DNA of 34,191 nt from Gammaproteobacteria bacterium (GCA_024275935.1 JAJRYF010000025.1:1-34191); one strand, 5' to 3'; numbered from the stretch's first letter, positions 16,099 to 34,179 are shown. Notes: generated from the letters alone by a model not told the origin. Program-made: numbers and translations.

Positions 16099-16431
16099 TT
16101 AACTTAATATTTTATTTAGCGTAGCTTGAGTCTGGCGCCACTCGGCTGTTAGCTTGTTGAGGGCTTCTAATCCAATAGTGGATAACTGATAAAAGCGCTT
16201 TTTACGTTTATTTTCTTCGCGCCATTCACTGGTTAATAAGTTTTGCTTTTCTAAACGCCTGATCAGTGGGTAGAGCGTACCTTCGTCAATTTCTAGACCC
16301 TGTAAGGCCAGATTTTTTCGCAACGAATAGCCGTAATGCTCTTCACGCAATTCTGAAAGAACCGCTAGAATTAACACCCCTCGGCGTAATTCTAATTTCA
16401 ATTTTTGATAGTGTTCAATTTCAGTCATCAT
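16099..16431 (-). CDS. PadR family transcriptional regulator
   Basis: About 110 residues from one of two adjacent ATGs at 16431 and 16428, preceded by CGGATGAA; the frame extends further upstream without a ribosome site and would run through the operator. The winged helix is clear: LELRRGVLILAVLSELREEH, then YGYSLRKNLALQG, IDEGTLYPLIRRLEKQNLL and the basic wing NKRKKRFYQLSTIG. PadR proteins of this short class are repressors of the membrane-protein genes directly downstream, here the HAAS gene 19 bases away. The operator-like repeat just upstream of the gene suggests autorepression. Confidence 0.88.
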   Translation of the reverse strand: MMTEIEHYQKLKLELRRGVLILAVLSELREEHYGYSLRKNLALQGLEIDEGTLYPLIRRLEKQNLLTSEWREENKRKKRFYQLSTIGLEALNKLTAEWRQTQATLNKILS

Positions 16432-16470
16432 TTCATCCGATAGTAAAAGCGGTGCATCTGGTTTTCTTTT

Positions 16471-16504
16471 TACTGTGCATCGTACAGTATGAATATATAC
16501 TGTA
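16471..16504. promoter_or_regulatory. Operator-like repeated half-sites upstream of the PadR gene
   Basis: Three alternating half-sites lie in a row: TACTGT (16471-16476), TACAGTAT (16483-16490) and ATACTGTA (16497-16504). The second and third form an 8-base inverted repeat with a 6-base spacer, and the first and second a 6-base inverted repeat with a 6- to 7-base spacer. They sit about 40-75 bases upstream of the PadR start in AT-rich DNA, where a promoter is expected. Binding by the PadR protein is inferred from position. Confidence 0.6.
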
Positions 16505-16990
16505 TATGAAATAGTATGTGTGATCAAGTATAATTCTGAATAGTTTGAAAAATGCGTAGCATTAGATGGTATAAATAAAGTTTATGAAGGCTTAGAAGTG
16601 TTAAGCTATATAATTATATAGTGTATAATTTATGGAATAACAAGCACTTAGTAGTTTTTTAATATAAAGCCAGTGTTATTCCACAGCTCAAGCTAATCAA
16701 TCAATAAAATCGTCAGTGGTTTGTCGTCTACAGCCAATTTAGTATCATCTGGGCGGGAGCAATGCCAGGCTGGGCCAAAATTTCTTCAAATTAACTGCGA
16801 AATTATGGAAAAGAGCTTTGATCCTACTTATACTCTAATGTGGATTATATTTCTAAGGATGCGACTGGGCAGTCAGGGCTTATTAGCTACCAGTTTCAGG
16901 AAAACGCTAGTTTGACAGAAATATTTTAAAGCCGGCTCAGGTGAGTGCTTGCTTCGAAAAATCGCAGTTGAAAACGATACTAAATAGATT
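16505..16990. other. Non-coding stretch upstream of the thioredoxin gene, with possible gene remnants
   Basis: No intact gene is visible. The left part (16505-16690) is very AT-rich. In 16822-16929 a short frame on the plus strand encodes SNVDYISKDATGQSGLISYQ and ends FQENASLTEIF before TAA; the alternating pattern and terminal Phe resemble the last strands of an outer-membrane barrel, but it begins at a stop codon and has no start. Just before it, around 16714-16790, another short open frame (QWFVVYSQFS...) also lacks a start. I read these as decayed coding sequence, with low confidence. Confidence 0.3.
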
Positions 16991-17525: not shown

Positions 17526-18890
17526 TTACCAACCATAAGAAAATGATACTTCCCATTGACTCATTGAGATTTCTATCGACTGGGTTGTATCAAAGGCGTT
17601 AGGCGCTCTAACTGTGCTGGTTGGCGCATACATCAAGGCAACCGAGAATTCGCTATCGTTATCACGAGTTTTGGTAAAACCAAAGGTAAAGTGATGCTCC
17701 ATAACCCCAGGGGCGAGGATGTTAAAGGTAACATCAGCGTTATTCACGGGTTGAATTGTATAGCTGTAACCGGCGCGGTAAACCATCTTGTTGTTACCCT
17801 GCCAGCGAGTTCCCAGCTTAAACGCAGTTACATCATCCCAACCGAAACCACCGCCTTTATTACCGCCCAGGCAATTTTCCAGGTTTCCATTCGGGCCAGC
17901 AACAGCCGGGCATGAGAATAGATTGGCCATAGGGTTGCCAACGGCATCTACATTTGAGTAGAAGGTGTGTTCAATATCAAAACTGGTTTTGGCAGCGCCG
18001 GTATTAAAACTGATGCCTGCGCGAATTACTGCAGGAATATCAAAGCCGCCTTTCTGAGCGAACAGGTCTGAATACTTATCAAACTCAGTCATATATAAGG
18101 TGCTGGTATAAGAAGCGGCAATGCTGACGCTTTCATTTATGTTGGTATGGAAGCCAATCTTGAGGCCGCCGCCGTATGAGGTGTCTACGCCGTTATTGGT
18201 CAGGTTGCTTGGAAATACCGTGCCGCCACTGGCGTTAAAGGTTTTGGTAAAACCAGCAAATGATCCCAGGCCTTTGGCCTCAAACATTTGAAATGCCAAT
18301 ACTGCAGCAATGCCTATGGAGGTGTTATCTGAGACTTTACGCGCATAGGATAGATCCAGAATAGCTTGAGAGAGATTAATTCCGGTTGGTGTTCCGCCAC
18401 CAAAAACGCCGGGGAAGGTCATTGGCCCAGCTGGGCCAGGGCCATCTGGATCAAATGTGGCGCTGCCACCCTGCCAGTCTGTATTCATTCCTCCGCGACC
18501 GTAAAAGGCAAAGCCCCAACCACTGTTATCATCAATTTTCCAAGTGCCAGCTATGTCTGGAATAAAAAATATGTTACTACTGCTGGTTTGGCTATCTGGG
18601 CCCAGAGTAAAGGCTCCAAAGTTGCCATTTAACTGACTCTCTGAGGCCTTATATTTGCGTTTTGGTGAGAATACAGAGATTCCAAAATCAAAAGCCTCAC
18701 CAACCTCGGTTAATGAGGCGGGATTGTTGGCAATTGCTATGGCCTCATCAGGGATAGCCATACCGGCTCCGGCCATGGCTTTATTTTTGGCACCGATACC
18801 ATGGCTGTTATAACCATTGGTGGCAAAAGCCGCCGGCATCGCCAAAATACAGGCGATAGTTAATATAATTCTTTTGGGACTGCGGTTCAT
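17526..18890 (-). CDS. OmpP1/FadL family outer-membrane transport protein
   Basis: 454 residues from ATG 18890-18888, preceded by CGGAGAACACC; an ATG 16 codons upstream has a poorer context. The signal peptide ends near residue 23 (PAAFA). The mature start TNGYNSHGIGAKNKAMAGAG, then AIPDEAIAIANNPASL, is the FadL hatch signature (N-G-x-x-x-H-G-x-G-x-x-x-x-A-M-A-G-A-G and N-P-A). The 14-strand barrel ends SQWEVSFSYGW, with an aromatic last residue. Such proteins pass hydrophobic compounds such as fatty acids, alkanes or aromatics across the outer membrane; the substrate is not visible. It is a single-gene unit. Confidence 0.92.
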   Translation of the reverse strand: MNRSPKRIILTIACILAMPAAFATNGYNSHGIGAKNKAMAGAGMAIPDEAIAIANNPASLTEVGEAFDFGISVFSPKRKYKASESQLNGNFGAFTLGPDSQTSSSNIFFIPDIAGTWKIDDNSGWGFAFYGRGGMNTDWQGGSATFDPDGPGPAGPMTFPGVFGGGTPTGINLSQAILDLSYARKVSDNTSIGIAAVLAFQMFEAKGLGSFAGFTKTFNASGGTVFPSNLTNNGVDTSYGGGLKIGFHTNINESVSIAASYTSTLYMTEFDKYSDLFAQKGGFDIPAVIRAGISFNTGAAKTSFDIEHTFYSNVDAVGNPMANLFSCPAVAGPNGNLENCLGGNKGGGFGWDDVTAFKLGTRWQGNNKMVYRAGYSYTIQPVNNADVTFNILAPGVMEHHFTFGFTKTRDNDSEFSVALMYAPTSTVRAPNAFDTTQSIEISMSQWEVSFSYGW

Positions 18891-18951
18891 GGTGTTCTCC
18901 GTTGGGATTTTGTTCTGGCTTCTGTGCTCTTGTGGCACATCTAAATCGAAT

Positions 18952-18990
18952 ATTAGTATATCTGACTTTATGAATTAATAAGATACTAAT
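18952..18990. promoter_or_regulatory. Inverted repeat upstream of the FadL-like gene
   Basis: ATTAGTAT (18952-18959) and ATACTAAT (18983-18990) are perfect 8-base inverted arms separated by 23 bases, in AT-rich DNA 62-100 bases upstream of the FadL-like start. The spacing and place suit a two-site operator, but no regulator gene is adjacent. Confidence 0.35.
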
Positions 18991-21974: not shown

Positions 21975-22304
21975 TTAACAGCCGCTAAGGTCTTCATCAC
22001 TACAGTACATTTCGTAGAAAAGGTCAATAATGCGCTCAACCTCAGGGTCATCAAGTGAATAGAAAATCGATTGGGCTTCGCGGCGATTTTTAACAATACC
22101 CTGCAAACGCATTCTGGAAAGGTGCTGAGATAAGGGTGATTGGGCTATACCAACTGATTTAGCTAGTTCGCCTACCGACATTTCGCCCTCTTTTAGCTGG
22201 CAAAGAACCATTAAACGGTCTGGATGGCTAAGAATTTTCATCATCGCACAGGCCTTGTCAGCCGCCTGCTTCATTTCCTCAACACTTTGCTCTGTTATCT
22301 GCAT
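21975..22304 (-). CDS. ArsR/SmtB family regulator with persulfide-sensor cysteine pair
   Basis: 109 residues. The winged helix is clear: ILSHPDRLMVLCQLKEGEMS, then VGELAKSVGIAQSPLSQHLS and a wing NRREAQSIFYSL. Cys35 lies in the first helix after HPDRLMVL and Cys101 near the C-terminus, 66 residues apart. In the persulfide sensors SqrR (C41/C107) and BigR the reactive pair has the same spacing and places, and the metal-site residues of ArsR (CVCD) are absent. There are further cysteines at 19 and 109. It should repress sulfur-oxidation genes until polysulfide or persulfide forms a bridge between the cysteines. The gene is divergent from soxC, and the inverted repeat between them is its probable site. 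SoxR of other operons is a close relative. Confidence 0.85.
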   Translation of the reverse strand: MQITEQSVEEMKQAADKACAMMKILSHPDRLMVLCQLKEGEMSVGELAKSVGIAQSPLSQHLSRMRLQGIVKNRREAQSIFYSLDDPEVERIIDLFYEMYCSDEDLSGC

Positions 22305-22380: not shown

Positions 22381-22411
22381 GTATATGATGTATATTTAAT
22401 ATAACATATAC
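22381..22411. promoter_or_regulatory. AT-rich inverted repeat, probable sulfur-regulator operator (site 1)
   Basis: GTATATG (22381-22387) and CATATAC (22405-22411) are outer inverted arms, and TATATT (22391-22396) and AATATA (22398-22403) are inner ones. It lies in the intergenic region between the divergent ArsR-family gene and soxC, about 63 bases before soxC. AT-rich inverted repeats of this kind are typical ArsR/BigR sites. A site with the same outer arms lies between the yeeE/yedE genes and the metallo-hydrolase gene. Confidence 0.6.
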
Positions 22412-22473
22412 GCACTGAACAGCTAGGCTATATTAACTACAAACGACAAGCAAGAACAGGATTAGCTTATTTT

Positions 22474-23802
22474 ATGCGCCAAAAGAAAGTAGAAGAACTA
22501 GACAAATTAGTAAGCTCAATTGCCACGGCCGGGGATAAGTTGCCGACGGTGGAGCGGCGACAATTTCTTAGTCAGGGCTTGAGTATGCTTGGTGGAGCTG
22601 CGGCAATGGTTGCTGGTGGCACTGCTTTGGCAGCAACTACTAGTAAATACGCCCCACCTAATGTTCCGCCCTGGACTAAAACTCTGGGTCAGGGGGTAAT
22701 TGCCGATCCCTATGGCGTGCCATCTCCATTCGAAAGTAATGTGGTTCGCAGAAATGTGCCCTGGCTAACGGCTGATCGTATTGCGTCAATCAGCTTTACC
22801 CCGTTGGCAGATTTAAAAGGCATTATTACCCCAAGCGGGTTGGTATTTGAGCGTTATCACGCTGGCCGCCCGGAAATAGATCCGGATGAACACCACTTGA
22901 TGATTCATGGAATGGTTGATAGACCGATTATCCTGACTATGGATGATCTGATGAAGTTTCCTTCAACCAGTATGATCCGTTTTCTTGAGTGCCCGGCAAA
23001 TGGCGGCATGGAATGGCGGGGCGCACAGATGACCAAGCTCCAGTTTACCCACGGTATGCTCTCTTGTTGTGAGTGGACCGGGGTTTTACTGTCTACAATT
23101 TTGGCAGAAGTAGGAGTTAACAAAGGCGCCAGCTGGATTCTTGCTGAGGGTGCTGATGGGGCGCTTATGAGCCGTTCCATTCCGATGGAAAAAGCGTTGG
23201 ATGATGCCCTCATTGTATATGCACAAAATGGCGAGGCTTTACGCCGCGAGCAAGGTTATCCAATTAGATTGATCAACCCCGGCTGGGAAGGTAATACTTG
23301 TATTAAGTGGCTGCGGCGTCTGGAAATTGGCGATTCACCCTATTACCAGCGTGAAGAGACCTCTAAATATACGGATCTTATGCCTGATGGTACGGCGCGT
23401 GAATTCACTTTTGTACAAGAATCTAACTCGGTAGTTACTACTCCCAGCCCTGAAAACCCACTCAAGGGCAAAGGCAAGTATTGGCTGGAAGGCCTGGCCT
23501 GGTCTGGCAGGGGTAAAATCAAAGCGGTTGATGTTTCCCTCGATGGTGGTATCAACTGGCGGCCAGCACGACTGACCGGGATGATTGAACCACGCGCTCT
23601 GACCCGTTTTGGTATGGAATGGGACTGGGATGGTTCTCCAGCGTTGATTCAAAGTCGTTCAATTGACGAAACCGGCTATGTGCAGCCAACTTATACCCAG
23701 TTACGGGCAGTTCGCGGCAGTAGTTCGATTTATCATAAAAATGCCATCCATACCTGGCGCTTACATGCGGATGGGAGTGTGACAAATGTTCAGATTTCCT
23801 AA
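22474..23802 (+). CDS. soxC: SoxC, molybdenum subunit of sulfur dehydrogenase
   Basis: 442 residues. The N-terminus carries a twin-arginine signal (VERRQFLSQGLSMLGG, hydrophobic to about 55), so export is by Tat with the cofactor inserted. The Mo-cofactor domain has Cys173 in FLECPANGGMEWRG, the predicted molybdenum ligand, followed by LSCCEWTGVLL. The dimerisation domain follows (about 305-442), with WSGRGKIKAVDVSLDGGINW. ADLKGIITPSGLVFERYHAG is SoxC-like and distinguishes it from plant-type sulfite oxidase. SoxCD oxidises the sulfane sulfur bound to SoxY. The stop lies 17 bases beyond the soxD start, so they are translationally coupled. Confidence 0.93.
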   Translation: MRQKKVEELDKLVSSIATAGDKLPTVERRQFLSQGLSMLGGAAAMVAGGTALAATTSKYAPPNVPPWTKTLGQGVIADPYGVPSPFESNVVRRNVPWLTADRIASISFTPLADLKGIITPSGLVFERYHAGRPEIDPDEHHLMIHGMVDRPIILTMDDLMKFPSTSMIRFLECPANGGMEWRGAQMTKLQFTHGMLSCCEWTGVLLSTILAEVGVNKGASWILAEGADGALMSRSIPMEKALDDALIVYAQNGEALRREQGYPIRLINPGWEGNTCIKWLRRLEIGDSPYYQREETSKYTDLMPDGTAREFTFVQESNSVVTTPSPENPLKGKGKYWLEGLAWSGRGKIKAVDVSLDGGINWRPARLTGMIEPRALTRFGMEWDWDGSPALIQSRSIDETGYVQPTYTQLRAVRGSSSIYHKNAIHTWRLHADGSVTNVQIS

Positions 23803-24730
23803 CCTTGCGTGGCCCAAAAGAATTCTTATGGCGCTGGCTTTGGCAGTTTTATTGGCGAGCAGTGGTCTAATCGCCAAGCCCAAACCCGCTGGGCATTATG
23901 GTTATGGCAAGGCCGCAACTGCGGCTGAAATAGCTGGCTGGGATATTGATATTCGCCCGGATGGGCGCGGTCTGCCGGATGCTTCCGGCTCGGTTGAAGA
24001 TGGCGAAATGCTATATGAGGATCAGTGCGCTGCTTGCCACGGGTCATTTGGAGAAGGCGTTGGCCGTTATCCGGTACTGGCTGGTGGTGAGGGTACATTG
24101 ACCGAGGCGCGGCCGGAAAAAACCGTTGGTAGCTTTTGGGCACATACATCTACGCTATTTGACTATATCCGCCGGGCGATGCCGTTTACCCAACCGAGCT
24201 CGCTGTCTGCCGAAGATACTTACGCAATTACGGCTTATGTTTTGTACTTGAATGATTTAGTGGAAGATGATTTTGTTCTTTCTAAGGAGACTTTTGCAGA
24301 AGTCGCCAAATTACCTAACCATGGTAATTTTACCCCCGACCCGCGCCCGGATGTTGATGCCAAAAGATGTATGAAAAATTGTAAAGATCCTGCCAGTGTA
24401 AGGATTACCTCAGAGCCAACAATTTTGGCTGAAGAAGTTGCCGAGGATACGCCGGTTAAGGCTGCGAGCCCTCAAGAGCAGGGTGCCGAGGTGTATAACG
24501 GCGCGTGTGCCGTTTGCCATAATCAGGGGGTTGCTGGTGCACCTAAATTGGGAGACAAGGCAGATTGGGAAAAACGCCTGTCGGCAGGTGAGGAAACCTT
24601 AATTAAACATGCCATCGAAGGCTTCCAGGGGCAGAGCGGATTTATGCCGGCCAAAGGCGGGCGTATGGATTTATCTGATACTGCGGTCGCAGAAGCGGTA
24701 AAATTCATGCTCGCAGAATCTATTAACTGA
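23786..24730 (+). CDS. soxD: SoxD, diheme cytochrome subunit of sulfur dehydrogenase
   Basis: 314 residues. A signal peptide (about 1-31, ending SSGLIAKP) is followed by two cytochrome domains. The first heme site is CAACH (Cys81, Cys84, His85) in DQCAACHGSFGEGVGRYPVL. A linker with CMKNC (Cys195, Cys199) follows, as in other SoxD proteins. The second heme site is CAVCH (Cys241, Cys244, His245), with a methionine ligand probably in GFMPAKGG. It takes electrons from SoxC and passes them to periplasmic cytochromes. The second domain is nearly duplicated by the next gene. Confidence 0.9.
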   Translation: MFRFPNLAWPKRILMALALAVLLASSGLIAKPKPAGHYGYGKAATAAEIAGWDIDIRPDGRGLPDASGSVEDGEMLYEDQCAACHGSFGEGVGRYPVLAGGEGTLTEARPEKTVGSFWAHTSTLFDYIRRAMPFTQPSSLSAEDTYAITAYVLYLNDLVEDDFVLSKETFAEVAKLPNHGNFTPDPRPDVDAKRCMKNCKDPASVRITSEPTILAEEVAEDTPVKAASPQEQGAEVYNGACAVCHNQGVAGAPKLGDKADWEKRLSAGEETLIKHAIEGFQGQSGFMPAKGGRMDLSDTAVAEAVKFMLAESIN

Positions 24731-24766
24731 GTCTGCGGACAACCATTAATTACAAAGGAGTGATAT

Positions 24767-25084
24767 ATGAAAATTCGTTTAGCCATATCCATAGCGGCAA
24801 TAACACTGGCTGCACCCATGTTGGCAGTTGCAGATGAAGGCGCTGATACTTATAACGTAGCTTGTGTCGCTTGCCACGGTTCTGGTATTGCCGGTGCGCC
24901 AAAACTTGAAGCAGAGGCTTGGAAAGGCCGGCTGGAAAAAGGTGAAGAGACCTTAATAAAGCACGCCATTGAAGGCTTCCAGGGAGAGACTGGGTTTATG
25001 CCAGCTAAAGGCGGTCGGGTGGATATGTCCGATGCAGCTATTACCGCGGCAGTAAAGTACATGATTGCTGAGGTGAGCAAGTAA
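24767..25084 (+). CDS. Free-standing class I cytochrome c similar to SoxD domain 2
   Basis: 105 residues with a signal peptide of about 22 (ending PMLAVA) and one heme site CVACH (Cys33, Cys36, His37). Its whole mature part is closely related to the second domain of SoxD: APKL, KGEETLIKHAIEGFQG and TGFMPAKGGR are shared, and similarity is visible in the DNA. The GFMPAKGG methionine is the probable axial ligand. It resembles cytochrome c5-type carriers. It sits between soxD and soxX, 37 bases after soxD and two bases before soxX, with AAAGGAG as ribosome site. The likely job is to accept electrons from SoxCD and/or SoxXA. Confidence 0.88.
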   Translation: MKIRLAISIAAITLAAPMLAVADEGADTYNVACVACHGSGIAGAPKLEAEAWKGRLEKGEETLIKHAIEGFQGETGFMPAKGGRVDMSDAAITAAVKYMIAEVSK

Positions 25085-25086
25085 GC

Positions 25087-25464
25087 ATGTCAAATTTCAG
25101 AGCTCTACAACTAACCCTGCTGCTTGGCTTGCTGTTTGCAGGCGGGCAAGTTCTTGCGCAAGCGGCTGGCGCTACAGACTCTGAGCTTGCCGAGCGAATT
25201 GCTGCTGGGCAAAAAGTGCTTGAAGATCGCAAGAAGGGCAATTGCCTTTCTTGCCATCTAATTATTGGCGCAGAGTTACCGGGTAATACTGGCCCGCCGT
25301 TGATTGGTATGCAAGCCCGCTGGCCTGACCGCGAGGCACTAAAAGCACAAATCAGCAACCCGGTTCTACGCAACCCCAATACCATCATGCCGCCTTATGG
25401 GCTGCACAGAATTTTAACTGATGCCGAAATTGAGCTATTGGTTGATTATATTTATTCACTTTAA
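25087..25464 (+). CDS. soxX: SoxX, monoheme cytochrome of the SoxXA complex
   Basis: 125 residues. Signal peptide ends near residue 25 (GGQVLAQ). The heme site is CLSCH (Cys53, Cys56, His57). GNTGPPLIGMQARWPDRE and NTIMPPYGLHRILTDAEIEL are the family's conserved segments, the latter with the axial Met in IMPPYG. With SoxA it catalyses oxidative coupling of thiosulfate to the SoxY cysteine. It follows the small cytochrome by two bases, so they are surely cotranscribed. Confidence 0.92.
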   Translation: MSNFRALQLTLLLGLLFAGGQVLAQAAGATDSELAERIAAGQKVLEDRKKGNCLSCHLIIGAELPGNTGPPLIGMQARWPDREALKAQISNPVLRNPNTIMPPYGLHRILTDAEIELLVDYIYSL

Positions 25465-25493
25465 GACTATTGTTTAAAACTACGAGGTATTCC

Positions 25494-25955
25494 ATGGAAA
25501 TTTTACCCGCCCGTCGAGGCTTTCTAAAAAACCTGATGGCTGTCGGCGCAATGCTGGTGCTACCAGCGTCTTTATTGGCTGCGTTGGTGCGCCCGCAAGC
25601 GGCATTTAAGGCTGATTCTGCTACTGGTTCAGTTCAGAGCTTATTTGGTCAAGATGCAGTAGAGGCCGCTGACAAGATCAGGCTGAAGGTTCCAGATATA
25701 GCCGAGAATGGCGCTGTGGTACCAGTCACAGTAGGCACTGACTTGGAAGGAGTTGAATCAATCACGATTATTATTGATAACAATCCAACCCCGTTATCCG
25801 CAAACTTCAATCTTACTGATGCAGTTTCTGCTGAGGTTTCAACTCGGGTAAAAATGGGTAAAAGCTCTCCGGTGCGCGCAGTTGTGAAGGCGCAGGGAAA
25901 AGTGTACTACACCACTAAAGAAGTCAAAGTCACCATCGGCGGCTGCGGCGGATAA
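25494..25955 (+). CDS. soxY: SoxY, thiosulfate carrier subunit
   Basis: 153 residues from ATG 25494, preceded by ACGAGGTATTCC; a TTG eight codons upstream has no such site. A twin-arginine signal (ARRGFLKNLMAVGAMLVLPA) exports it, presumably with SoxZ riding along since SoxZ has none. The C-terminus is the swinging arm GGCGG, whose cysteine carries the sulfur intermediates of the whole pathway. The body is an Ig-like fold with VESITIIIDNNPTPL. Position between soxX and soxZ is standard. Confidence 0.95.
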   Translation: MEILPARRGFLKNLMAVGAMLVLPASLLAALVRPQAAFKADSATGSVQSLFGQDAVEAADKIRLKVPDIAENGAVVPVTVGTDLEGVESITIIIDNNPTPLSANFNLTDAVSAEVSTRVKMGKSSPVRAVVKAQGKVYYTTKEVKVTIGGCGG

Positions 25956-25972
25956 TTTAGGAGAATCAGATT

Positions 25973-26290
25973 ATGGCAAGCAAAAGTGTAAAAATTCGCG
26001 GCAAAGTAAAAGACGGCGTCGCTAAAGTAAAGGTGCTGATTTCTCATCCAATGGAAACCGGAACCAGGCGGGATGCTGACACGGGTGATTTAATTCCCGC
26101 AAAGTATATCCAGGAAGTAGTCTATAGCCATAATGGCAAAGCGGTGATGACGGCATATTGGGGAACTTCGGTTTCCAAAAATCCCTATAGTGCATTTACG
26201 CTTAAATCTGCTACCGTTGGTGATATGGTTGGCGTAAGCTGGTCAGATAATACCGGTGCTAGTGGCGAGAATGAGATTCCGCTGAAATAA
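25973..26290 (+). CDS. soxZ: SoxZ, partner subunit of the SoxYZ carrier
   Basis: 105 residues without a signal peptide, the usual SoxZ size. The family segments are KVKVLISHPMETGTRRDADT, IPAKYIQEVVYSHNGKAVM and WSDNTGASGENEIPLK. It forms a dimer with SoxY and positions the carrier arm. No cysteine is present, as expected. The start follows TTTAGGAGAATCAGATT, 17 bases after soxY. A 57-base gap follows before soxA, without an evident terminator. Confidence 0.94.
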   Translation: MASKSVKIRGKVKDGVAKVKVLISHPMETGTRRDADTGDLIPAKYIQEVVYSHNGKAVMTAYWGTSVSKNPYSAFTLKSATVGDMVGVSWSDNTGASGENEIPLK

Positions 26291-26347
26291 GCTAATTAAG
26301 CTCTGCATGTCAGAGCAACAAGAGTTGCGTTAGAGGTTCTAATAAGT

Positions 26348-27172
26348 ATGAATTGGAAAAAATTACCGGCCTTATTTCTGGCATTGATGCTTTCGGGACA
26401 GGCGCAGTCTGACCCGGAAACTGATTATTTGGCGTTGCAGAAGCTGTACCAGCAAAAATTTCCTGATATAGAGCTGGCAGAGTTCAAAGACGGGGTCTAC
26501 GCAATCGATGCCAAAATGCGTGAGCAATGGTTGGAGATGGAAGATTTCCCGGCTTATGAAATTGCTATTGATGAAGGCGAGGAATTGTATAACACGCCCT
26601 TTGCTAACGGTAAGTCTTATGCCACTTGCTTTGGTGATGACCCTGGAGTAAAAAGCGGCTACCCGAGGTTTGATGAAGACCTGGGTAAAGTAGTGACTCT
26701 GGAGGTGGCAATAAATCAGTGTCGTTTAGACAACGGTGAGCAGGCTCTGCCATGGTTAATTGGCGACCTGGCCAGAATTAGTTCATATATGGCTTTTGCC
26801 TCTCGAGGCAAGCATTTTGATATCAAGATAGAAACTCCTGCAGCCCGGGCTGCCTATAATGTCGGCAAACAGTTCTATTATTCTCGCCGGGGGCAGTTAA
26901 ATTTCAATTGTAGCGGCTGCCATCAATTAAATGTTGGCCAAATGTTGCGGGCCGAGCGGACTAGCCCAACCGTTGGGCAAGCCACCCATTGGCCAGTGTA
27001 TAGAGGCAAATGGGAAGATGTAGGTACCATCCATAAACGCTTCCAGGAGTGTAACTCACAAGTCAGGTCGTTACCGCTTGAGCCGCAAAGTGATGTTTAT
27101 AGAAGTTTGGAGTATTTTCTTACCTTTATGAGTAACGGAATGGAACTTAACGGCCCGGGGAGCAGACGATGA
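26348..27172 (+). CDS. soxA: SoxA, catalytic cytochrome of the SoxXA complex (single-heme type)
   Basis: 274 residues. Signal peptide ends near residue 21 (SGQAQS). The C-terminal domain has the heme site CSGCH (Cys188, Cys191, His192) in NFNCSGCHQLNVG, and Cys235 in FQECNSQVRSL, the cysteine that as a persulfide ligates the active heme. The N-terminal domain has no CxxCH; only Cys94 (YATCFGDD) and Cys125 (NQCRLDN) remain and probably form a disulfide, as in monoheme SoxA of some sulfur oxidisers. It couples thiosulfate to SoxY with SoxX. Its stop overlaps the soxK start by four bases. Confidence 0.92.
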   Translation: MNWKKLPALFLALMLSGQAQSDPETDYLALQKLYQQKFPDIELAEFKDGVYAIDAKMREQWLEMEDFPAYEIAIDEGEELYNTPFANGKSYATCFGDDPGVKSGYPRFDEDLGKVVTLEVAINQCRLDNGEQALPWLIGDLARISSYMAFASRGKHFDIKIETPAARAAYNVGKQFYYSRRGQLNFNCSGCHQLNVGQMLRAERTSPTVGQATHWPVYRGKWEDVGTIHKRFQECNSQVRSLPLEPQSDVYRSLEYFLTFMSNGMELNGPGSRR

Positions 27173-27480
27173 AATATTTGCTTATTATTTGTCTGATTGT
27201 TTTTGGGCAGTTGGCTATAGCTGCTGAAAACACAGCGGCAGAAGCTACAGACTTTGCAGTTTTAATCGCGCAGGCTGAGGAAAAATTCGCCGAATCAAAA
27301 ACTGTTGGCCATGCCTGGACAGTAACCGCAGACCGCTTAGGCGATGCCCGGAAGGCTAGTGCTGCCGGGGATATGAAGTTAGCTAAGGCGAATGCCAAAG
27401 AAGCCATCAAACTGGCTGAGTTATCAATCCAGCAGGCGCAGGTAGAAACTAAATTATGGCAGCAACGAGTACCAAAGTAA
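27169..27480 (+). CDS. soxK: SoxK, SoxXA-binding protein (SAXB)
   Basis: 103 residues. Signal peptide of about 18 (ending LAIA), then a short helical protein rich in Ala, Lys, Glu and Gln: FAVLIAQAEEKFAESKTVGH, then AWTVTADRLGDARKASAAGD and KLAKANAKEAIKLAELSIQQ. This heptad-like pattern, the size and the position between soxA and soxB are those of SoxK, which binds SoxXA and raises its activity in green sulfur bacteria. It has no cysteine and no heme site. Start ATG overlaps the soxA stop (ATGA) and soxB follows six bases later. Confidence 0.82.
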   Translation: MKYLLIICLIVFGQLAIAAENTAAEATDFAVLIAQAEEKFAESKTVGHAWTVTADRLGDARKASAAGDMKLAKANAKEAIKLAELSIQQAQVETKLWQQRVPK

Positions 27481-27486
27481 CCAATT

Positions 27487-29247
27487 ATGGAGCGTAGAGA
27501 ATTTGTAAACCTGCTTGGTAAAGCCTGGGTTGCAGGAATGTTGCCCTTAGGCCAGAGTATGGCAATGGCGGCAGGTAAATTGCAACCGCCAATGTATGGG
27601 AATACCCGGATTCTACACTTCACTGACTGCCATGCGCAGTTATTACCCATACATTTCCGTGAACCAAATGTAAATATTGGCGTGGGCGCTGCTAATGGCC
27701 GACTACCGCATCTGGTGGGGCGCAATTTGTTAAAGAAACTCCCGCAGATAAGTTCACTGCAAGATATACATGCCTATACTTATCTGGATTTCACCGCTGC
27801 TGCTGAGAAATTCGGCAAAGTTGGCGGCTTCGCGCATCTAAAAACTTTAATCGACCAGTGTCGTGCTGAAGCTGGCGATGGGCGCTCTATTCTCCTCGAT
27901 GGTGGCGATACCTGGCAAGGCTCAGGTACAGCACTTTGGACGCGTGGCAAGGATATGGTGGAAGCCTGCAATATGCTGGGTGTAGATGTAATGACCGGGC
28001 ACTGGGAGTTCACTTATCAGGATTCTGAGATTCTGGAAAATGCCCGCCTGTTCAAAGGTGATTTTGTAGCCCAGAATATAAAAGCCACAGAAGATGCCCT
28101 GTTTGAAGGGATTGAGGTTCATGATGAAGATAGCGGGCATGTATTCAAGCCCTATGTAATTAAAGAAATGCAGGGCAAGCGGGTGGCGGTTATTGGGCAG
28201 GCCTTCCCCTATACCCCGGTGGCTAATCCTCGTAGGTTTATCCCCGATTGGACTTTTGGGATTCAGGAAGAAGATTTACAAGAGCTGGTGACCACTATTC
28301 GCGCCAATGAAAAGCCTGATGCAGTGCTGTTGTTATCGCATAACGGCATGGATGTAGATCTGAAATTGGCATCTAGAGTCTCTGGTATTGATGCCATTTT
28401 AGGCGGCCATACCCATGATGGTGTGCCAGTACCGGTAGTAGTTGAAAACCCCGGTGGCAAGACTCTGGTAACTAATGCTGGCTCTAACGGCAAGTATTTG
28501 GCGGTGCTGGATTTAAAGCTGGTTAATGGCAAAGTGGATGGCTTTAATTACACGCTAATTCCAGTGTTTTCCAAGTTGATTCCGGCAGATGCCGAAATGG
28601 CTGCATATATCAGCAAGGTACGCCAACCATATTTGGGCAAGCTTAATGAAGAGCTGGCTACTGCCGAAAGCTTGATGTATCGCCGGGGTAATTTTAATGG
28701 CACTTTTGATCAGGTGATTACCGACTCTTTAACTACAGTGCTGGATGCCCAGTTTGCATTCTCGCCCGGTTTCCGTTGGGGTACCAGCGTGCTGCCAGGT
28801 GAAACCATCACCATGGATAGAGTGCTCGATCAGACCTGTATGACTTACCCTGAAACCTATGTAAGAGAGATGTCGGGTGAGCAAATCAAATTAATTCTTG
28901 AAGATGTCTGTGATAATCTGTTTAACCCCGACCCTTACCGGCAACAAGGTGGCGACATGGTACGGGTTGGTGGAATGACCTACGCAGTAGAGCCAAATGG
29001 TGAATCTCAAAATCGGATTTCTGAAATTCGAGATTTGCAAGGTCAGCTGATTGATGCCAATAAAGACTACAAAGTTGCAGGCTGGGCCACTGTTGGCAGT
29101 AAATCTCCAGGTGCGCCAGTATGGGATGTGGTTGCCAGTTACTTGCGCGACCGTAAAACTATAAAAATTGATAAATTGATTGAACCAAAACTAAAAGGGG
29201 TTGCAGGCAATCTCGGTATCGCTGATTATATGGGTGAAGTAACTTAG
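27487..29247 (+). CDS. soxB: SoxB, sulfate thiohydrolase
   Basis: 586 residues, a normal SoxB length. The N-terminus MERREFVNLLGKAWVAG is a twin-arginine signal. The metallophosphoesterase-like domain has the dimanganese ligands in HFTDCHAQLLP (Asp47, His49), LLDGGDTWQGSG, GHWEFTY and LLSHNGMDVD, and ILGGHTHDGVP. The C-terminal 5'-nucleotidase-like domain follows (about 380-586), with FNGTFDQVITDSL and GDMVRVGGMTYAVEPNG. It hydrolyses sulfate from SoxY-bound thiosulfonate. GGDMVRVGGM is the substrate pocket loop typical of SoxB. Confidence 0.95.
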   Translation: MERREFVNLLGKAWVAGMLPLGQSMAMAAGKLQPPMYGNTRILHFTDCHAQLLPIHFREPNVNIGVGAANGRLPHLVGRNLLKKLPQISSLQDIHAYTYLDFTAAAEKFGKVGGFAHLKTLIDQCRAEAGDGRSILLDGGDTWQGSGTALWTRGKDMVEACNMLGVDVMTGHWEFTYQDSEILENARLFKGDFVAQNIKATEDALFEGIEVHDEDSGHVFKPYVIKEMQGKRVAVIGQAFPYTPVANPRRFIPDWTFGIQEEDLQELVTTIRANEKPDAVLLLSHNGMDVDLKLASRVSGIDAILGGHTHDGVPVPVVVENPGGKTLVTNAGSNGKYLAVLDLKLVNGKVDGFNYTLIPVFSKLIPADAEMAAYISKVRQPYLGKLNEELATAESLMYRRGNFNGTFDQVITDSLTTVLDAQFAFSPGFRWGTSVLPGETITMDRVLDQTCMTYPETYVREMSGEQIKLILEDVCDNLFNPDPYRQQGGDMVRVGGMTYAVEPNGESQNRISEIRDLQGQLIDANKDYKVAGWATVGSKSPGAPVWDVVASYLRDRKTIKIDKLIEPKLKGVAGNLGIADYMGEVT

Positions 29248-29263
29248 TCCCAAGGAAAAAAAG

Positions 29264-29722
29264 ATGAAGCTGAATAATTTTAATGTATGGCTGATAGCAG
29301 TTCTGGTTCTGGCAAGCAGTGTTAACTTGCAAGCCGAAGAGGTACTCAACGAGGATAAGCCTTTTGCCAAAGCGCATATCATCTTGCAGCTAAGCGATGC
29401 GGATCCGGAAAAGCAGGCAACGGTTTTGGATATTGCCAATAACCTAACCAAACACTATGGCGGCCCGGATATGGCCGATATTGAAATAATTACCTTTGGC
29501 TCAGGCATTGATTTATTACTTAAGGGCAACCCCAACGAGAAGCGCATTTCAAGCTTGGTAGATAACGGTATTAAGTTCTATATTTGTATGAATACAGTAT
29601 TAACTCGGGAACGCCGTACCGGTAAGCGCCCTGAATTAAGCCAGCATGCTATTGGCGTGCAAACCGGGGTGGCCTTTATGGTGGATGAAATTCATCGTGG
29701 CTATACGCTGGTTAGACCTTAA
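29264..29722 (+). CDS. Exported DsrE/DsrF-like sulfur-relay-type protein
   Basis: 152 residues, 16 bases after soxB. A signal peptide (1-24, ending VNLQA) makes this periplasmic, unlike cytoplasmic DsrE. The DsrE-like fold is suggested by AHIILQLSDADPEKQATVLD, then IANNLTKHYGGPDMADIEII and FGSGIDLLLKGNPNEKRISS. There is a single cysteine, Cys108, in NGIKFYICMNTVLT, the position of the reactive cysteine in many DsrE-like proteins. A role as a periplasmic persulfide carrier or chaperone for the Sox pathway is inferred from place and cysteine. DsrE-like exported proteins are known near sox genes, but their function is not settled. Confidence 0.78.
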   Translation: MKLNNFNVWLIAVLVLASSVNLQAEEVLNEDKPFAKAHIILQLSDADPEKQATVLDIANNLTKHYGGPDMADIEIITFGSGIDLLLKGNPNEKRISSLVDNGIKFYICMNTVLTRERRTGKRPELSQHAIGVQTGVAFMVDEIHRGYTLVRP

Positions 29723-29724
29723 CT

Positions 29725-30111
29725 ATGCGACCAATTATTAAAACCACATTTCTAATAACATTACTGTTGATGGTTTCCAGCTCCGTCTTTGCGTCTGGAA
29801 ATTCAAATAAATGGCGTATTGAGGTAAGTGAAGGCGCCAAGTCAAATGGTCTGATTTTATTTAGGCTAACCCCAAAAGACAGTGAGTCTATTAATGTGAC
29901 GGTGCATATAAATGACGGCCTGCGGGAAAATAGGGTTGCCAAAGAGATTAAAAATGCGTTTAAAAGCCAATTGCCCAAAGGTAGTTACCATGTTGAGCGT
30001 GATGATGGTGAAGATGTGTTGGTCAAAAAGCGCGGCAAAACCAGTAATTTTAAGTTGGAGTTAATATCCAGCAATGTAAAAGCTGTGCGTATCAACATCG
30101 ATAAAGAATAA
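29725..30111 (+). CDS. Exported protein of unknown function, last gene of the sox operon
   Basis: 128 residues, two bases after the DsrE-like gene, so cotranscribed. Signal peptide about 1-23 (FLITLLLMVSSSVFASG). The mature part is basic and beta-rich (ILFRLTPKDSESINVTVHIN, FKSQLPKGSYHVERDDGEDV, FKLELISSNVKAVRINID) with no cysteine and no known motif. I recognise no family. Adjacent position suggests it partners the exported DsrE-like protein. A hairpin follows its stop by six bases. Confidence 0.7.
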   Translation: MRPIIKTTFLITLLLMVSSSVFASGNSNKWRIEVSEGAKSNGLILFRLTPKDSESINVTVHINDGLRENRVAKEIKNAFKSQLPKGSYHVERDDGEDVLVKKRGKTSNFKLELISSNVKAVRINIDKE

Positions 30112-30117
30112 TTTAGA

Positions 30118-30146
30118 CTCCCGGTGCGCGCTTGACGCACCGGGAG
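30118..30146. terminator. Strong hairpin at the end of the sox operon
   Basis: CTCCCGGTGCG (30118-30128), seven-base loop CGCTTGA, CGCACCGGGAG (30136-30146): an 11-base perfect GC-rich stem just after the last gene of the operon and before a convergent gene. No T-tract follows on the plus strand, so it may protect the 3' end as well as, or instead of, terminating. Confidence 0.7.
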
Positions 30147-30168
30147 GTTAATACAAACGGAAACTAGT

Positions 30169-30654
30169 TTAACTTCCCAAAAACAGCCCAAGTAAAACCC
30201 CTGCCACTAGGGTTCTTGAGTGCCAAGATGGGCAGTGGCGATTATGGCGATGTCCTCTGGCTATATACCCATAGTTGGGAAAGTAATACCCACCACGGTT
30301 GGAATAGTACTGTTGCCCGTGATGCTGATTCCGGTTGAAGCGCTGGTTATTGTAGTAACCATAGTGCCCATCTACCCTGAAGCCATAATTATTGTGAGGC
30401 CGGCTACGGTTGTAGTAGCTATCGCTGTATGAGTGCGGCTGGCTACGATTGGAGTAGCTATAGCGGTATGAGTGCGGGCGACTTTGCCGGGCGTGCTTTC
30501 TTGCCTTCTTATAGGCTTTCCGGGACTGCTTGTAATACTTATTGCTATGAGGTTGTTTGAAATTGTGCTCACGGTGGTTATCACTGGCAGTTGCCGGGAT
30601 GCTCCAGCCGATAAAAGCAAACAAAGTGGTCAATATAATCATGTACTGTCGCAT
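30169..30654 (-). CDS. Exported His/Tyr/Arg/Ser-rich low-complexity protein
   Basis: 161 residues. Signal peptide about 1-23 (ending PATAS). The mature part is low-complexity and basic: repeats of SRPHSYRYSYSNRS, SQPHSYSDSYYNRS and SRPHNNYGF, then NQRFNRNQHHGQQYYSNRGG. A short hydrophobic C-terminus TLVAGVLLGLFLGS could be an anchor. One cysteine (HNRHCPSW). The composition suggests metal or polyanion binding, but no family is recognised. The DNA repeats of about 42-45 bases underlie the protein repeats. The start follows AGGAGAAATCT, a good ribosome site. It faces the sox operon end to end and is not part of it. Confidence 0.6.
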   Translation of the reverse strand: MRQYMIILTTLFAFIGWSIPATASDNHREHNFKQPHSNKYYKQSRKAYKKARKHARQSRPHSYRYSYSNRSQPHSYSDSYYNRSRPHNNYGFRVDGHYGYYNNQRFNRNQHHGQQYYSNRGGYYFPNYGYIARGHRHNRHCPSWHSRTLVAGVLLGLFLGS

Positions 30655-30786
30655 AGATTTCTCCTGTCGCTGTGCTAATTTAAAATAGGCTTATATCAAA
30701 GCCTGTTAGCACCTTAGCACCTGGCAGGTGAATCAAATCTGAATGTTAGCTGTACCAGAGCTGAACCATGCCTTTCTAGCAGCTAT

Positions 30787-30814
30787 AAAAAAACCGGCCA
30801 GCGGCCGGTTTTTT
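30787..30814 (-). terminator. Rho-independent terminator of the yeeE/yedE genes
   Basis: AAAAAAACCGGCC (30787-30799), three-base loop, GGCCGGTTTTTT (30803-30814). Read on the minus strand it is a stem followed by seven Ts, 22 bases after the last YeeE/YedE gene; read on the plus strand it is also followed by Ts, so it works in both directions. Confidence 0.9.
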
Positions 30815-30835
30815 ATCTGCTAGTAACTTCACAAT

Positions 30836-31384
30836 CTACGAAGGCATTTCACCATAACGATCCTTGAGCAGTTTAAAGCTCAGGAAAATCATAATCAGGC
30901 TAAAAGGTATAGCCACCCAGATACCATTCTCAACATTAAAGACCGTTGCCAGGGTTATTTCATTGCTGGCATTGGCGGTAATATTGAATGTTTTGTTCAT
31001 CAAAGGAAAAACTACCGCGTAGATAGCCGCACCAAGCAAGCCTCCTAGAATTACAAATACAGCATCAGTTTTACCTTCTGAGGCACCAACTATGCAGGTA
31101 CCAGGGCAGTATCCAGCCAGAGCAAAGCCAACCCCGAAGATTAGCCCAGCTACAATTATACCGCTGGTATAAGTGGGCTTAATATCCATATTTGCAATGC
31201 CAAAGAAATCCAGCAGATAGATGCCAATGGTACCCACAGCGATAGCGGTAAGGATTAATTTGATTACAGTTAAATCCTTGAGCAATAAAGAGCCTAGAAT
31301 TTTCTTATAGTTGGACGCACCACCAAGTTGCAAAATAGCTCCAAAGCCAGCGCCGATTAAAAGACCGAGTAACATCTTATCCAT
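30836..31384 (-). CDS. YeeE/YedE family membrane protein (PmpB-like half)
   Basis: 182 residues, about five transmembrane segments. The signature is VGFALAGYCPGTCIVGASEG near residues 86-105, with the two cysteines that in YeeE-type thiosulfate transporters pass the sulfur compound along the pore. The N-terminus GLLIGAGFGAILQLGGASN is the matching Gly-rich helix. Half-length proteins of this type come in pairs (PmpA/PmpB), here with the gene just upstream overlapping by eight bases. They should import thiosulfate or a related sulfur compound across the inner membrane, or act in sulfur trafficking. The direction is not proven. Confidence 0.86.
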   Translation of the reverse strand: MDKMLLGLLIGAGFGAILQLGGASNYKKILGSLLLKDLTVIKLILTAIAVGTIGIYLLDFFGIANMDIKPTYTSGIIVAGLIFGVGFALAGYCPGTCIVGASEGKTDAVFVILGGLLGAAIYAVVFPLMNKTFNITANASNEITLATVFNVENGIWVAIPFSLIMIFLSFKLLKDRYGEMPS

Positions 31385-31922
31385 TATTATTTACTCCTTT
31401 GCTGCGATAGAGCATTTTTGCGGTAAAAATACCTGAGGCGAAAATAGCTACGCCAAAAATGAGAGAGCTGATGGCTAGCTGTGAGATCCCGGAGATCATA
31501 TGCCCGGAGGTACAGCCTCCTGCAAGCCTGGCACCAAAGAGCAGGAACACCCCGCCAAGAAATGCATAAAACCAACGCTTGCCTTTCGAATTGCCAAATT
31601 TTGAGGCCCACATAGAAGGGATTTCTGATTCATCCTTTGGGTGGAACCGGCGAGTAGCAAACGCAGCGATGCCGCCACCTAAAAACATCCCGAAAACCAG
31701 CATCCAGCCACTACCAATCTGCCAATCGTTCTTACCAACCTTGGCGGCCAGGTATTCATTTTGTTCGGCTTTTTCCGGGGCAATTTTATGCGCGATAACC
31801 CCGTCGGTGACCACATACTGGCTCGAAACACCAAGCGGTTTATACGCATAAGTAGCAAAAGTAAGGAGTAAGCCGAGCAAAATTCCGGCCGTCTTCCATG
31901 AAATTACGGGTTCTTGAGACAT
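31377..31922 (-). CDS. YeeE/YedE family membrane protein (PmpA-like half)
   Basis: 181 residues, about four to five transmembrane segments. The family motif is FGARLAGGCTSGHMISGISQ near residues 130-149, with the conserved cysteine. After the first helix (TAGILLGLLLTFATYAYKPL) there is an external loop of about 50 residues before GSGWMLVFGMFLGGGIAAFA. Together with the downstream half it forms the two-part YeeE/YedE unit. It is first in the operon; its start is about 29 bases from the AT-rich inverted repeat shared with the sox region, so it probably answers to the same ArsR-family regulator. The ribosome site is GGAGGTTAATTAAA. Confidence 0.86.
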   Translation of the reverse strand: MSQEPVISWKTAGILLGLLLTFATYAYKPLGVSSQYVVTDGVIAHKIAPEKAEQNEYLAAKVGKNDWQIGSGWMLVFGMFLGGGIAAFATRRFHPKDESEIPSMWASKFGNSKGKRWFYAFLGGVFLLFGARLAGGCTSGHMISGISQLAISSLIFGVAIFASGIFTAKMLYRSKGVNNNG

Positions 31923-31950
31923 TTTAATTAACCTCCGATAGGGTATCTAA

Positions 31951-31974
31951 GTATATTATCATATTGTTATATAC
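31951..31974. promoter_or_regulatory. AT-rich inverted repeat, probable sulfur-regulator operator (site 2)
   Basis: GTATAT (31951-31956) and ATATAC (31969-31974) are perfect outer arms around ATTATCATATTG-type AT-rich sequence. It sits between the divergent yeeE/yedE operon and the metallo-hydrolase gene, 29 and 76 bases from their starts. The arms match those of the site between the ArsR-family gene and soxC, though the spacing is shorter (24 versus 31 bases in total). Confidence 0.5.
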
Positions 31975-32049: not shown

Positions 32050-32940
32050 ATGAACTCAATAATATTGATATTAGCCCTGGTGCTGAGTGGTAGTGTCTTC
32101 GGTGGTGGGATTAGCTTGCAAGTACTAGGTTCAGGTGGGCCGATTGCAGATGATGAGCGGGCATCTTCAGCTTATATCATCCGCATTGATGGGCGCGGCG
32201 AAGTTCTTGTCGATGTGGGTGGTGGCATTTTTCAACGCTTTGGGGCTGCCGGGTTAAAAATGGAAGACTTGACACTTGTAGGCATCAGCCACTTCCACAC
32301 CGATCACTCTGCAGATTTCCCAGCGCTAATGAAGAGTGCATATTTCAGCGATAGGAAAGCCCCCCTGTATTTGGCTGGCCCAGCCGCAGGCGGTCAATTT
32401 CCAGGTCTGCATAATTGGCTCGATGCTTTATTTTCCCAGGGGAAGGGGGCCTATGGGTATTTGTCCGGGTATCTAGCTGCCGCGGCCGAGCCCTTTGCCC
32501 TGATTTCGATTGAAGTACCTTTGAATACAGGGCAACCATTCCCGGTAGGTGATTTTGCGAACTACAAAGTAACCGCGCTGGCGGTACCTCACGGGCCAGT
32601 GCCATCGTTGGCTTACAAAATTCAGATCGGTGAAAAGATAATTGTGATCTCCGGCGACCAAAACCTAAGCGACCCAGATTTTATCGAATTTATAAAGAAC
32701 GCAGACCTTTGGGTAATGCCTATGCCAATACCAGAAGACGCCGGCCAAATTGCCAGAAACTTACATGCACAACCTTCAAAAATTGGCGAGATAGCTGCTG
32801 TGGCTGAGGTAAAGCACTTGCTTCTAAGCCATTTCATGGCGCGTAGTCTTAATCAGCTTGAGGCCAGCGTGGTGTTGGTAAAGCAGGCATATAAAGGCCG
32901 GGTAACTCTGGCAGAAGACTTTATTTTGTTGGATATGTAA
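32050..32940 (+). CDS. Exported metallo-beta-lactamase-fold hydrolase (RNase Z/arylsulfatase-like)
   Basis: 296 residues from ATG 32050, preceded by GGAG seven bases upstream; a start 12 codons earlier lacks this. Signal peptide about 1-19 (LILALVLSGSVFGGG). The zinc site is HFHTDHSADF near residue 84-93, followed by PHGPVPSLAYKI, VISGDQNLSD and LLLSHFM, which supply later ligands. SLQVLGSGGPIADDERASSA is the first strand of the tRNase Z-like branch, but the export signal rules out RNA processing. It is not a SoxH or ETHE1 persulfide dioxygenase by motif order as far as I can tell. The divergent promoter shared with YeeE/YedE ties it to sulfur metabolism by inference. Confidence 0.78.
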   Translation: MNSIILILALVLSGSVFGGGISLQVLGSGGPIADDERASSAYIIRIDGRGEVLVDVGGGIFQRFGAAGLKMEDLTLVGISHFHTDHSADFPALMKSAYFSDRKAPLYLAGPAAGGQFPGLHNWLDALFSQGKGAYGYLSGYLAAAAEPFALISIEVPLNTGQPFPVGDFANYKVTALAVPHGPVPSLAYKIQIGEKIIVISGDQNLSDPDFIEFIKNADLWVMPMPIPEDAGQIARNLHAQPSKIGEIAAVAEVKHLLLSHFMARSLNQLEASVVLVKQAYKGRVTLAEDFILLDM

Positions 32941-32979: not shown

Positions 32980-33942
32980 TTATAGCAACCTATCGAGAGG
33001 GGAGCGCGCACCCAACGCGCCACGATTCACCACATGGGTATAAATCATCGTAGTAGATACATCTTTATGCCCCAACAGCTGCTGAATAGTGCGGATATCC
33101 ATACCTGATTCGAGCAAATGGGTTGCGAAGCAGTGGCGTAAGGTGTGACAACTGACGCGCTTCCTAATTCCAGATACATTAACCGCCTGCTTCATGGCTT
33201 TTTGCATCGTAGTTTCATGCAAGTGATGACGCTGTTTCTGTGACGAACCTCGGGGGTTAAGCGACAATGCATTTGAGGGGAAAAGATATTGCCATTTCAG
33301 TTCATGCCGAGCATTAGGGTATTTGCGTGCTAAGGCTTGCGGCATATATACCCCACCAAAGCCCATTGCAAGGTCTTGCTGGTGCTGTAATTTCACCTTA
33401 TTTATTTGCGCACTAATATCAACGAGCAGGCTTTCGGGCAAAACCGTCACCCTGTCCTTACCCCCTTTGCCAGAGTAAACCGTCAGGGTTAAACGGCAAA
33501 AATCAACCATCATCACTCGCAATCTCAGGCACTCTATTAAGCGCAAACCACTACCATACAACAGTCGCCCAATTAGACTGTACTGACCATGCAAGGATGC
33601 CAAAACTAATTTAAGCTCATTTTGAGAAAGCACAACTGGGACACGCTGTTGTTTTTTTGCGCGTATAACATTATCCAGCCAAGGCAAGTCCACCTTTAGC
33701 ACCCGGCGATATAAAAACAATAAAGCCTGCGCTGCCTGGTTTTGAGTGGATGGCGCAACTTTACGCTTAACTGCCAACCAGGTTAAAAACTCCTCAAGCT
33801 CCTTTTTACCCATCTCAAGCGGGTGCTTCATATTATGAAAGAATATAAATCGCTTAATCCACTGCACATAAGCTTTCTCGGTTTTCATAGCATAATGATG
33901 CACCCGCAAAGTATTTCTGACTTCATTTAATAGTTTTGGCAT
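32980..33942 (-). CDS. intI: Integron integrase (IntI-type tyrosine recombinase)
   Basis: 320 residues from ATG 33942-33940, preceded by GGGGCGAG; a TTG four codons upstream was rejected. N-terminal SAM-like domain (about 5-90: [38 protein letters not shown]). The catalytic residues are Arg in [14 protein letters not shown], His-x-x-Arg in [16 protein letters not shown], His in [16 protein letters not shown] and Tyr of the same segment. The extra helix found only in IntI is present ([20 protein letters not shown]), and the C-terminal [14 protein letters not shown] matches IntI1's VGGAGVRSPLD. It inserts gene cassettes at attI, expected just upstream of the gene. The length and domain order are intact. 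Confidence 0.94.
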
Positions 33943-34179
33943 ATCTCGCCCCAATTCTGTCTATGTAGCTTAATTTGCCCCCCTTATAATTAACATCAAA
34001 TACTTACCCTCATTTAAGTAGGAATAGACCGCATTAGCCTATGGATATTTCTTCCTAATTAGTAAACTACAAAATTCGAAGTTGAGTTTTAGATTGCAAA
34101 TCAATGGGTTTAATAGCACAATGTGATTTGTGAATATTTTTATACAGAAATACGGCCTGATATTTCGGTTTGGCTGTAT
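33943..34179. other. AT-rich leader between intI and the attI core
   Basis: No gene. This should hold the intI promoter (minus strand), the promoter that drives cassettes (plus strand) and the accessory sites of attI. No LexA box of the CTGT-N8-ACAG type was found; only half-sites occur (CTGTCTATG near 33958 and ATACAG near 34143). No near-consensus promoter pair stands out. Confidence 0.5.

Follow-up and report, generated by a model that had tools for sequence, protein, structure and literature searches.

A shared inverted repeat at the sox and yedE promoters as the likely operator of one sulfur regulon in a gammaproteobacterium

The locus and its divergent promoters

The stretch of DNA considered here, referred to below as the window, comprises 34,191 bp from a Gammaproteobacteria bacterium (GCA_024275935.1, JAJRYF010000025.1:1-34191) and carries a sox operon. 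The element in question is a 22-bp inverted repeat that occurs once between the gene of an ArsR-family repressor and soxC and once between yedE, encoding a sulfur transporter, and a metallo-hydrolase gene. The genome itself is a 2.42-Mb assembly of 155 contigs that is 92% complete, and it was compared with 39 genomes of the family, including the genus mates G033, G034 and G035, and with 250 genomes at order level; metagenome-assembled genomes of this kind are incomplete. The features relevant to the argument are the following:

17526..18938, minus strand: FadL/TodX-type outer-membrane protein (Pfam Toluene_X, synteny)
21975..22304, minus strand: ArsR-family repressor, SqrR/BigR/SoxR-like, 109 amino acids, with sensor-type Cys35 and Cys101 (Pfam HTH_5, PDB matches)
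22382..22403: predicted operator 1, between arsR and soxC; plus strand TATATGATGTATATTTAATATA, reverse complement TATATTA-AATATACA-TCATATA
22474..23802, plus strand: soxC, molybdopterin sulfane dehydrogenase, first gene of the sox operon (Pfam Oxidored_molyb and Mo-co_dimer)
23786..30111, plus strand: remaining sox cluster with soxD, a small cytochrome, soxX, soxY, soxZ, soxA, SAXB, soxB and two conserved small open reading frames (ORFs)
30836..31384, minus strand: YeeE/YedE-type sulfur transporter, half gene 2 (Pfam Sulf_transp)
31377..31922, minus strand: YeeE/YedE-type sulfur transporter, half gene 1 (Pfam Sulf_transp, weak TsuA match)
31952..31973: predicted operator 2, between yedE and the metallo-hydrolase gene; TATATTATCATATTGTTATATA, that is TATATTA-TCATATTG-TTATATA
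32050..32940, plus strand: metallo-beta-lactamase-fold hydrolase, probably exported; likely ATG at 32050, the ORF opening at TTG 32014

Operator 1 lies 78 bp from the arsR ATG and 71 bp from that of soxC, while operator 2 is 30 bp from the yedE ATG and 77 bp from the hydrolase ATG at 32050.

Definition and rarity of the shared element

A preliminary description of the window had noted two repeats about 9.5 kb apart, each inside a divergent intergenic region, and both strings are found where it placed them (GTATAT-N19-ATATAC at 22381-22411 and GTATAT-N12-ATATAC at 31951-31974). The GTATAT...ATATAC outer arms, which it had taken as the shared motif, did not hold up as such, with spacings of 19 and 12 and a GTATAT arm that is lost in the genus mates. 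The literal pattern GTATAT-N8..20-ATATAC was rejected, as its four matches in the genome equal the four of a reversed control, a result that taken by itself would suit a chance likeness of two AT-rich intergenic stretches. Comparison of the arsR/soxC intergenic region with the genus mates and with arsR, hydrolase and yedE promoters elsewhere revealed the element that is actually shared: TATATTA-N8-TNATATA, an inverted repeat of 22 bp with copies at 22382-22403 and 31952-31973, each of them one mismatch away from TATATTA-N8-TAATATA. Relative to the arms described earlier, site 2 coincides with the element; at site 1 the right arm ends 8 bp outside it.

In this register the motif is rare. Allowing at most one mismatch to TATATTA-N8-TAATATA, the 2.42-Mb genome contains exactly three sites (reversed control: one), all of them before sulfur genes: the two in the window and one at C133:7511, which precedes by 27 bp the gene of a persulfide dioxygenase, a 292-aa metallo-beta-lactamase-fold protein matching the dioxygenase half of Blh with 352 bits. 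The search of the genome for further copies, which had been set as the test by which the single-regulon idea might fall, therefore did not find the motif to be common in unrelated intergenic regions. Several of the sites with two mismatches are intragenic or beside unrelated genes and were not taken as operators.

A weight matrix built from 30 sites in other genera, with none from the genus of the window, ranks site 2 first in the window (22.5 bits) and site 1 second (19.2 bits), the next match reaching 9.5 bits. At the weaker of the two scores about 0.003 matches per window are expected under a first-order Markov null, and under an AT-rich intergenic null the chance of the window sites is at most 0.0025. 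Chance likeness is refuted for the refined motif by these two top ranks, by the third genomic site at a sulfur gene and by conservation across species, and is considered extremely unlikely. Across the 39 family genomes, 100 sites with at most one mismatch compare with 19 for the reversed control, or 83 with 9 when the own genus is left out.

Conservation at orthologous promoters

The comparison of promoters across relatives, also proposed in the preliminary description, supports the idea. The arsR/soxC site is kept at the orthologous place in all three genus mates, whose soxC proteins are 89-91% identical to that of the window, reading TATATTA-TATTTCTC-TCATATA in G033, TATATTA-TATTTCTC-TTATATA in G035 and, with two mismatches, TATATTA-ATTTTCTC-TTACATA in G034. 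All 22 letters of the dioxygenase site (C133:7511) recur unchanged before the orthologous gene of G033 and of G035. Zero-mismatch sites lie upstream of both complete yedE orthologs of the type found in the window, in G024 and G030 (61-62% identity). These two loci and the hydrolase-arsR promoters of genus g12 were fetched by protein homology alone and have the site.

Gene order in relatives ties the targets together. In genus g12 arsR immediately follows the metallo-hydrolase gene, and both are read in one direction. This hydrolase-arsR pair is divergent from soxC across one site in G024 and, with a site between, from the persulfide dioxygenase gene in G027 and G032. Similarly, a site separates divergent arsR and dioxygenase genes in G031 and G036, and divergent dioxygenase and yedE genes in G024 and G030. 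Hence arsR and the hydrolase, soxC, dioxygenase and yedE genes share a site because they are linked as neighbours in relatives, and within g12 the promoters of hydrolase-arsR, soxC, yedE and the dioxygenase all carry it. In the genome of the window, genes that are linked elsewhere are split over three promoters, with a copy of the operator at each. Once the motif is placed in register, the proposal of a single regulon is thus supported by its rarity in the genome and its conservation at the orthologous promoters of relatives.

Neighbours of the site across the family and a sister family

Inspection of 91 sites, some of them from loci that had been retrieved because of their arsR, yedE or hydrolase gene and a few double-counted in overlapping loci, showed that 87 are intergenic. 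Sixty of the 91 lie within 1.5 kb of a 16-gene set of sulfur, redox and neighbour genes, a count that is partly circular since the set was partly drawn from the sites' own neighbours; none of 15 control places, located with the reversed AT-equivalent pattern, is near that set. The non-circular evidence is that the same gene families recur beside independently located sites in different genomes, namely octaheme cytochromes of the tetrathionate-reductase family, TrxC, ATP sulfurylase, a SoeA-like molybdoprotein and DsrE. Eight genomes have dsrA beside a site, and seven of them also have a TauD-family gene in divergent orientation; this TauD-family dioxygenase gene opposite dsrA across the operator is conserved in seven genomes of genus g12 (L199, L202, L174, L207, L212).

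At order level, perfect sites are concentrated in genus g21 of the sister family f8, with almost none elsewhere. They number up to 10 per genome and 62 summed over the g21 genomes (control: 0), and follow an extended consensus TATATTAG-N6-CTAATATA. Several lie 29-30 bp upstream of arsR itself; others precede small c-type cytochromes, octaheme cytochromes and HlyD-type proteins, and some precede an oxidoreductase that by eye resembles sulfide:quinone reductase.

Another explanation is that the repeats are AT-rich -10 regions of divergent promoters, palindromic in appearance through TATA boxes on both strands. A promoter-like TTAACC-18-TATATT, the one weak match in a promoter scan, overlaps site 2, and in regulated promoters -10 boxes do overlap operators. 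However, the scan gave no promoter-like match at site 1, the fixed N8 spacing and the symmetric arms are conserved across genera, the reversed pattern of equal AT content is rare, and both window sites exceed the AT-rich intergenic nulls, so that this explanation is very unlikely.

The ArsR-family regulator

The protein encoded at 21975-22304 matches Pfam HTH_5 (1e-13), and its nearest PDB entries are the 6o8l cluster (2.6e-23) and BigR (3pqj; 1.6e-22). In the database the title of the 6o8k-6o8o cluster reads simply 'ArsR family', and we take this cluster to be SqrR of Rhodobacter capsulatus. Cys35 and Cys101, singled out in the preliminary description as a persulfide-type sensor, are 66 residues apart. 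Both occur in every one of the 38 sequences aligned, among them BigR and the chain from the SqrR cluster. The protein should not be called BigR, since it scores 94.2 bits against the BigR equivalog model NF040642 of NCBIfam, below the curated cut-off of 155. Judged by its sequence, it is a SqrR/BigR-like member of the persulfide-sensing repressor kind, with a predicted response to polysulfide.

None of the seven genomes that lack a close homolog of arsR contains a site, and at least one site occurs in 27 of the 32 genomes with such a homolog (Fisher p ~5e-5, uncorrected for phylogeny or G+C). Searching the genome contigs with the protein returned the three genus mates and one distant match. 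The genome of the window holds only this one close ArsR protein, the other match being 34% over 83 aa within a 321-aa frame.

This bears on the rival reading in which the sites do serve as operators of a common sulfur regulon, with another regulator or both of two ArsR paralogs as their main reader. A second paralog, 40-47% identical, is encoded in several relatives, and in genera g13 and g14 the only ArsR found is of this second type, yet sites are present. Against this, the own genome has no second close ArsR, the site is in the promoter of arsR itself in several genera, and genomes lacking arsR lack sites. We therefore regard a different reader as improbable, and a regulon read by the protein at 21975-22304 as the preferred interpretation.

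Relation to known persulfide-responsive repressors

For SqrR, the deduced site is ATTC-N8-GAAT (PMC9774250). The regulator described here resembles SqrR in its closest solved-structure cluster, in sensor cysteines at the same aligned positions and in the N8 spacing of the half-sites, and inverted repeats with this spacing are found at both window promoters and across relatives. The half-sites are ATTA/TAAT-like in nearly all sites and ATTC in a few (e.g., G012 and G038), so that the ATTC/GAAT form of SqrR proper is not the one found here. The predicted targets also differ from those of SqrR, including sox, yedE and the hydrolase gene in the window and dsr, sat and the soeA-like gene in relatives.

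SoxR of Hyphomicrobium denitrificans has sox and the YedE-like soxT1A under its control and no longer binds DNA after treatment with polysulfide; its cysteines Cys50 and Cys116 are 66 residues apart (PMC10451225), the same spacing as between Cys35 and Cys101. SoxR and sHdrR are likewise ArsR-type repressors that bind several intergenic regions (PMC10451225; PMC12423496). The layout is also that of a SoxR-type regulon: within the own genus arsR and soxC diverge, a further site lies at yedE in the window, and in G024 arsR lies 3' of the hydrolase gene that diverges from soxC, which fits the placement of a SoxR-type regulator beside sox. H. denitrificans differs in being an alphaproteobacterium with a truncated Sox system. 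The text of the two reports was found to contain no consensus operator and no metallo-hydrolase or dsr targets for SoxR or sHdrR (PMC10451225; PMC12423496), and in the literature no published consensus for either was found, the only deduced site found being that of SqrR.

BigR of Xylella and Agrobacterium is an ArsR-family protein that controls the persulfide dioxygenase Blh (PMC5823870; PDB 3pqj). Both cysteines are conserved between it and the protein described here, and the dioxygenase at the third site matches the C-terminal domain of Blh. The differences are that this dioxygenase is without the sulfur-transferase half and that the regulon appears wider here. No description of the TATATTA-N8-TAATATA site and its gene set was found in the literature. 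The kind of switch is therefore already known; the operator is new and the regulon is apparently wider.

A model for the regulon

From these comparisons we infer that the two repeats are very likely operators of one sulfur regulon read by the ArsR-family protein at 21975-22304, a SqrR/BigR/SoxR-like repressor, and that one switch probably controls the whole sulfur-oxidation pathway. A dimer of the repressor would bind the 22-bp repeat at the arsR/soxC and yedE/metallo-hydrolase promoters and at the third site before the dioxygenase gene, occluding both divergent directions including its own transcription. Oxidation of thiosulfate or sulfide would raise cytoplasmic sulfane sulfur, sulfur atoms would bridge Cys35 and Cys101, and the repressor would leave the DNA, as shown for H. 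denitrificans SoxR (PMC10451225). The predicted outcome is that import of sulfur by YedE, periplasmic oxidation by Sox, the oxidation of persulfide and the hydrolase are switched on jointly.

Several observations weigh against this interpretation. The yedE site is not kept in the genus mates, where yedE is a 33-41% identical paralog in a molybdenum-cofactor operon, its locus having no site within two mismatches in G034 and none within one in G035. Several arsR genes of relatives are without a site directly upstream, and where two ArsR paralogs are present, as in some relatives, the motif is not necessarily read by this ortholog in every case. The conserved C/G of the SqrR half-site is A/T here (TATATTA), and the operator strings that entered the weight matrix had been picked beside sulfur genes. 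Finally, in the AT-rich own genus the count of 17 sites is barely above the 10 of the control, so that within this genus the claim rests on orthologous conservation.

Other features of the window and of related loci

Before their yedE paralog, G034 and G035 have a palindrome, ACATTC-N4-GAATGT, that differs in spacing and was set aside. In the same two genomes the metallo-hydrolase gene is the last of a molybdenum-cofactor-like run 3' of this paralog, comprising moeA, moaA, moaC, mobA and moaE as assigned by eye (L038:9801-16207 on G034:C39; L040:5022-11353 on G035:C78). In the window the hydrolase gene is directly adjoined by a tyrosine recombinase/integrase gene (32980-33954) close to the contig end.

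The FadL-like gene is directly 3' of arsR in most relatives, and the segment 19117-21778 that keeps the two apart in the window, with two bPH-domain genes and one small membrane-protein ORF, therefore looks like an insertion. Directly upstream of the FadL-like gene, two overlapping weak matrix matches (4-5 bits; 18949-18985) are possibly a decayed operator. The third matrix match in the window is a palindrome at 16481-16508, CGTACAGTATGAATATATACTGTATATG. It closely precedes the likely ATG (~16434) of a minus-strand ORF (16099-16527) assigned by eye to a PadR-like regulator, and is probably that regulator's own operator. Within the sox cluster, the small cytochrome encoded at 24767-25084 resembles the C-terminal cytochrome domain of SoxD and is 53-64% identical between genus mates, which suggests a duplicated SoxD domain retained across the genus.

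Implications for sulfur oxidation in the lineage

Beyond the window, we lean slightly towards a broader reading in which a SqrR-like repressor with a TATATTA-N8-TAATATA operator would be the master regulator of sulfur oxidation across the lineage and its sister family. Its gene set would be wide, extending over sox, YedE import, persulfide dioxygenase, reverse Dsr, ATP sulfurylase, oxidation of sulfite by the SoeA-like protein, thioredoxin C and octaheme cytochromes, and the operators would stay with these genes as they move between loci.

The operator consensus offers a means of predicting the sulfur regulon of Gammaproteobacteria that are largely uncultured. Several genes of unassigned role are thereby placed in or near this regulon: those of the metallo-hydrolase, of the FadL-like porin, of the octaheme cytochrome and of the TauD-like dioxygenase encoded opposite dsrA. 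The consensus also makes testable the idea that periplasmic Sox, cytoplasmic Dsr/Sat and the import of sulfur are coordinated by one sensor of sulfane sulfur.

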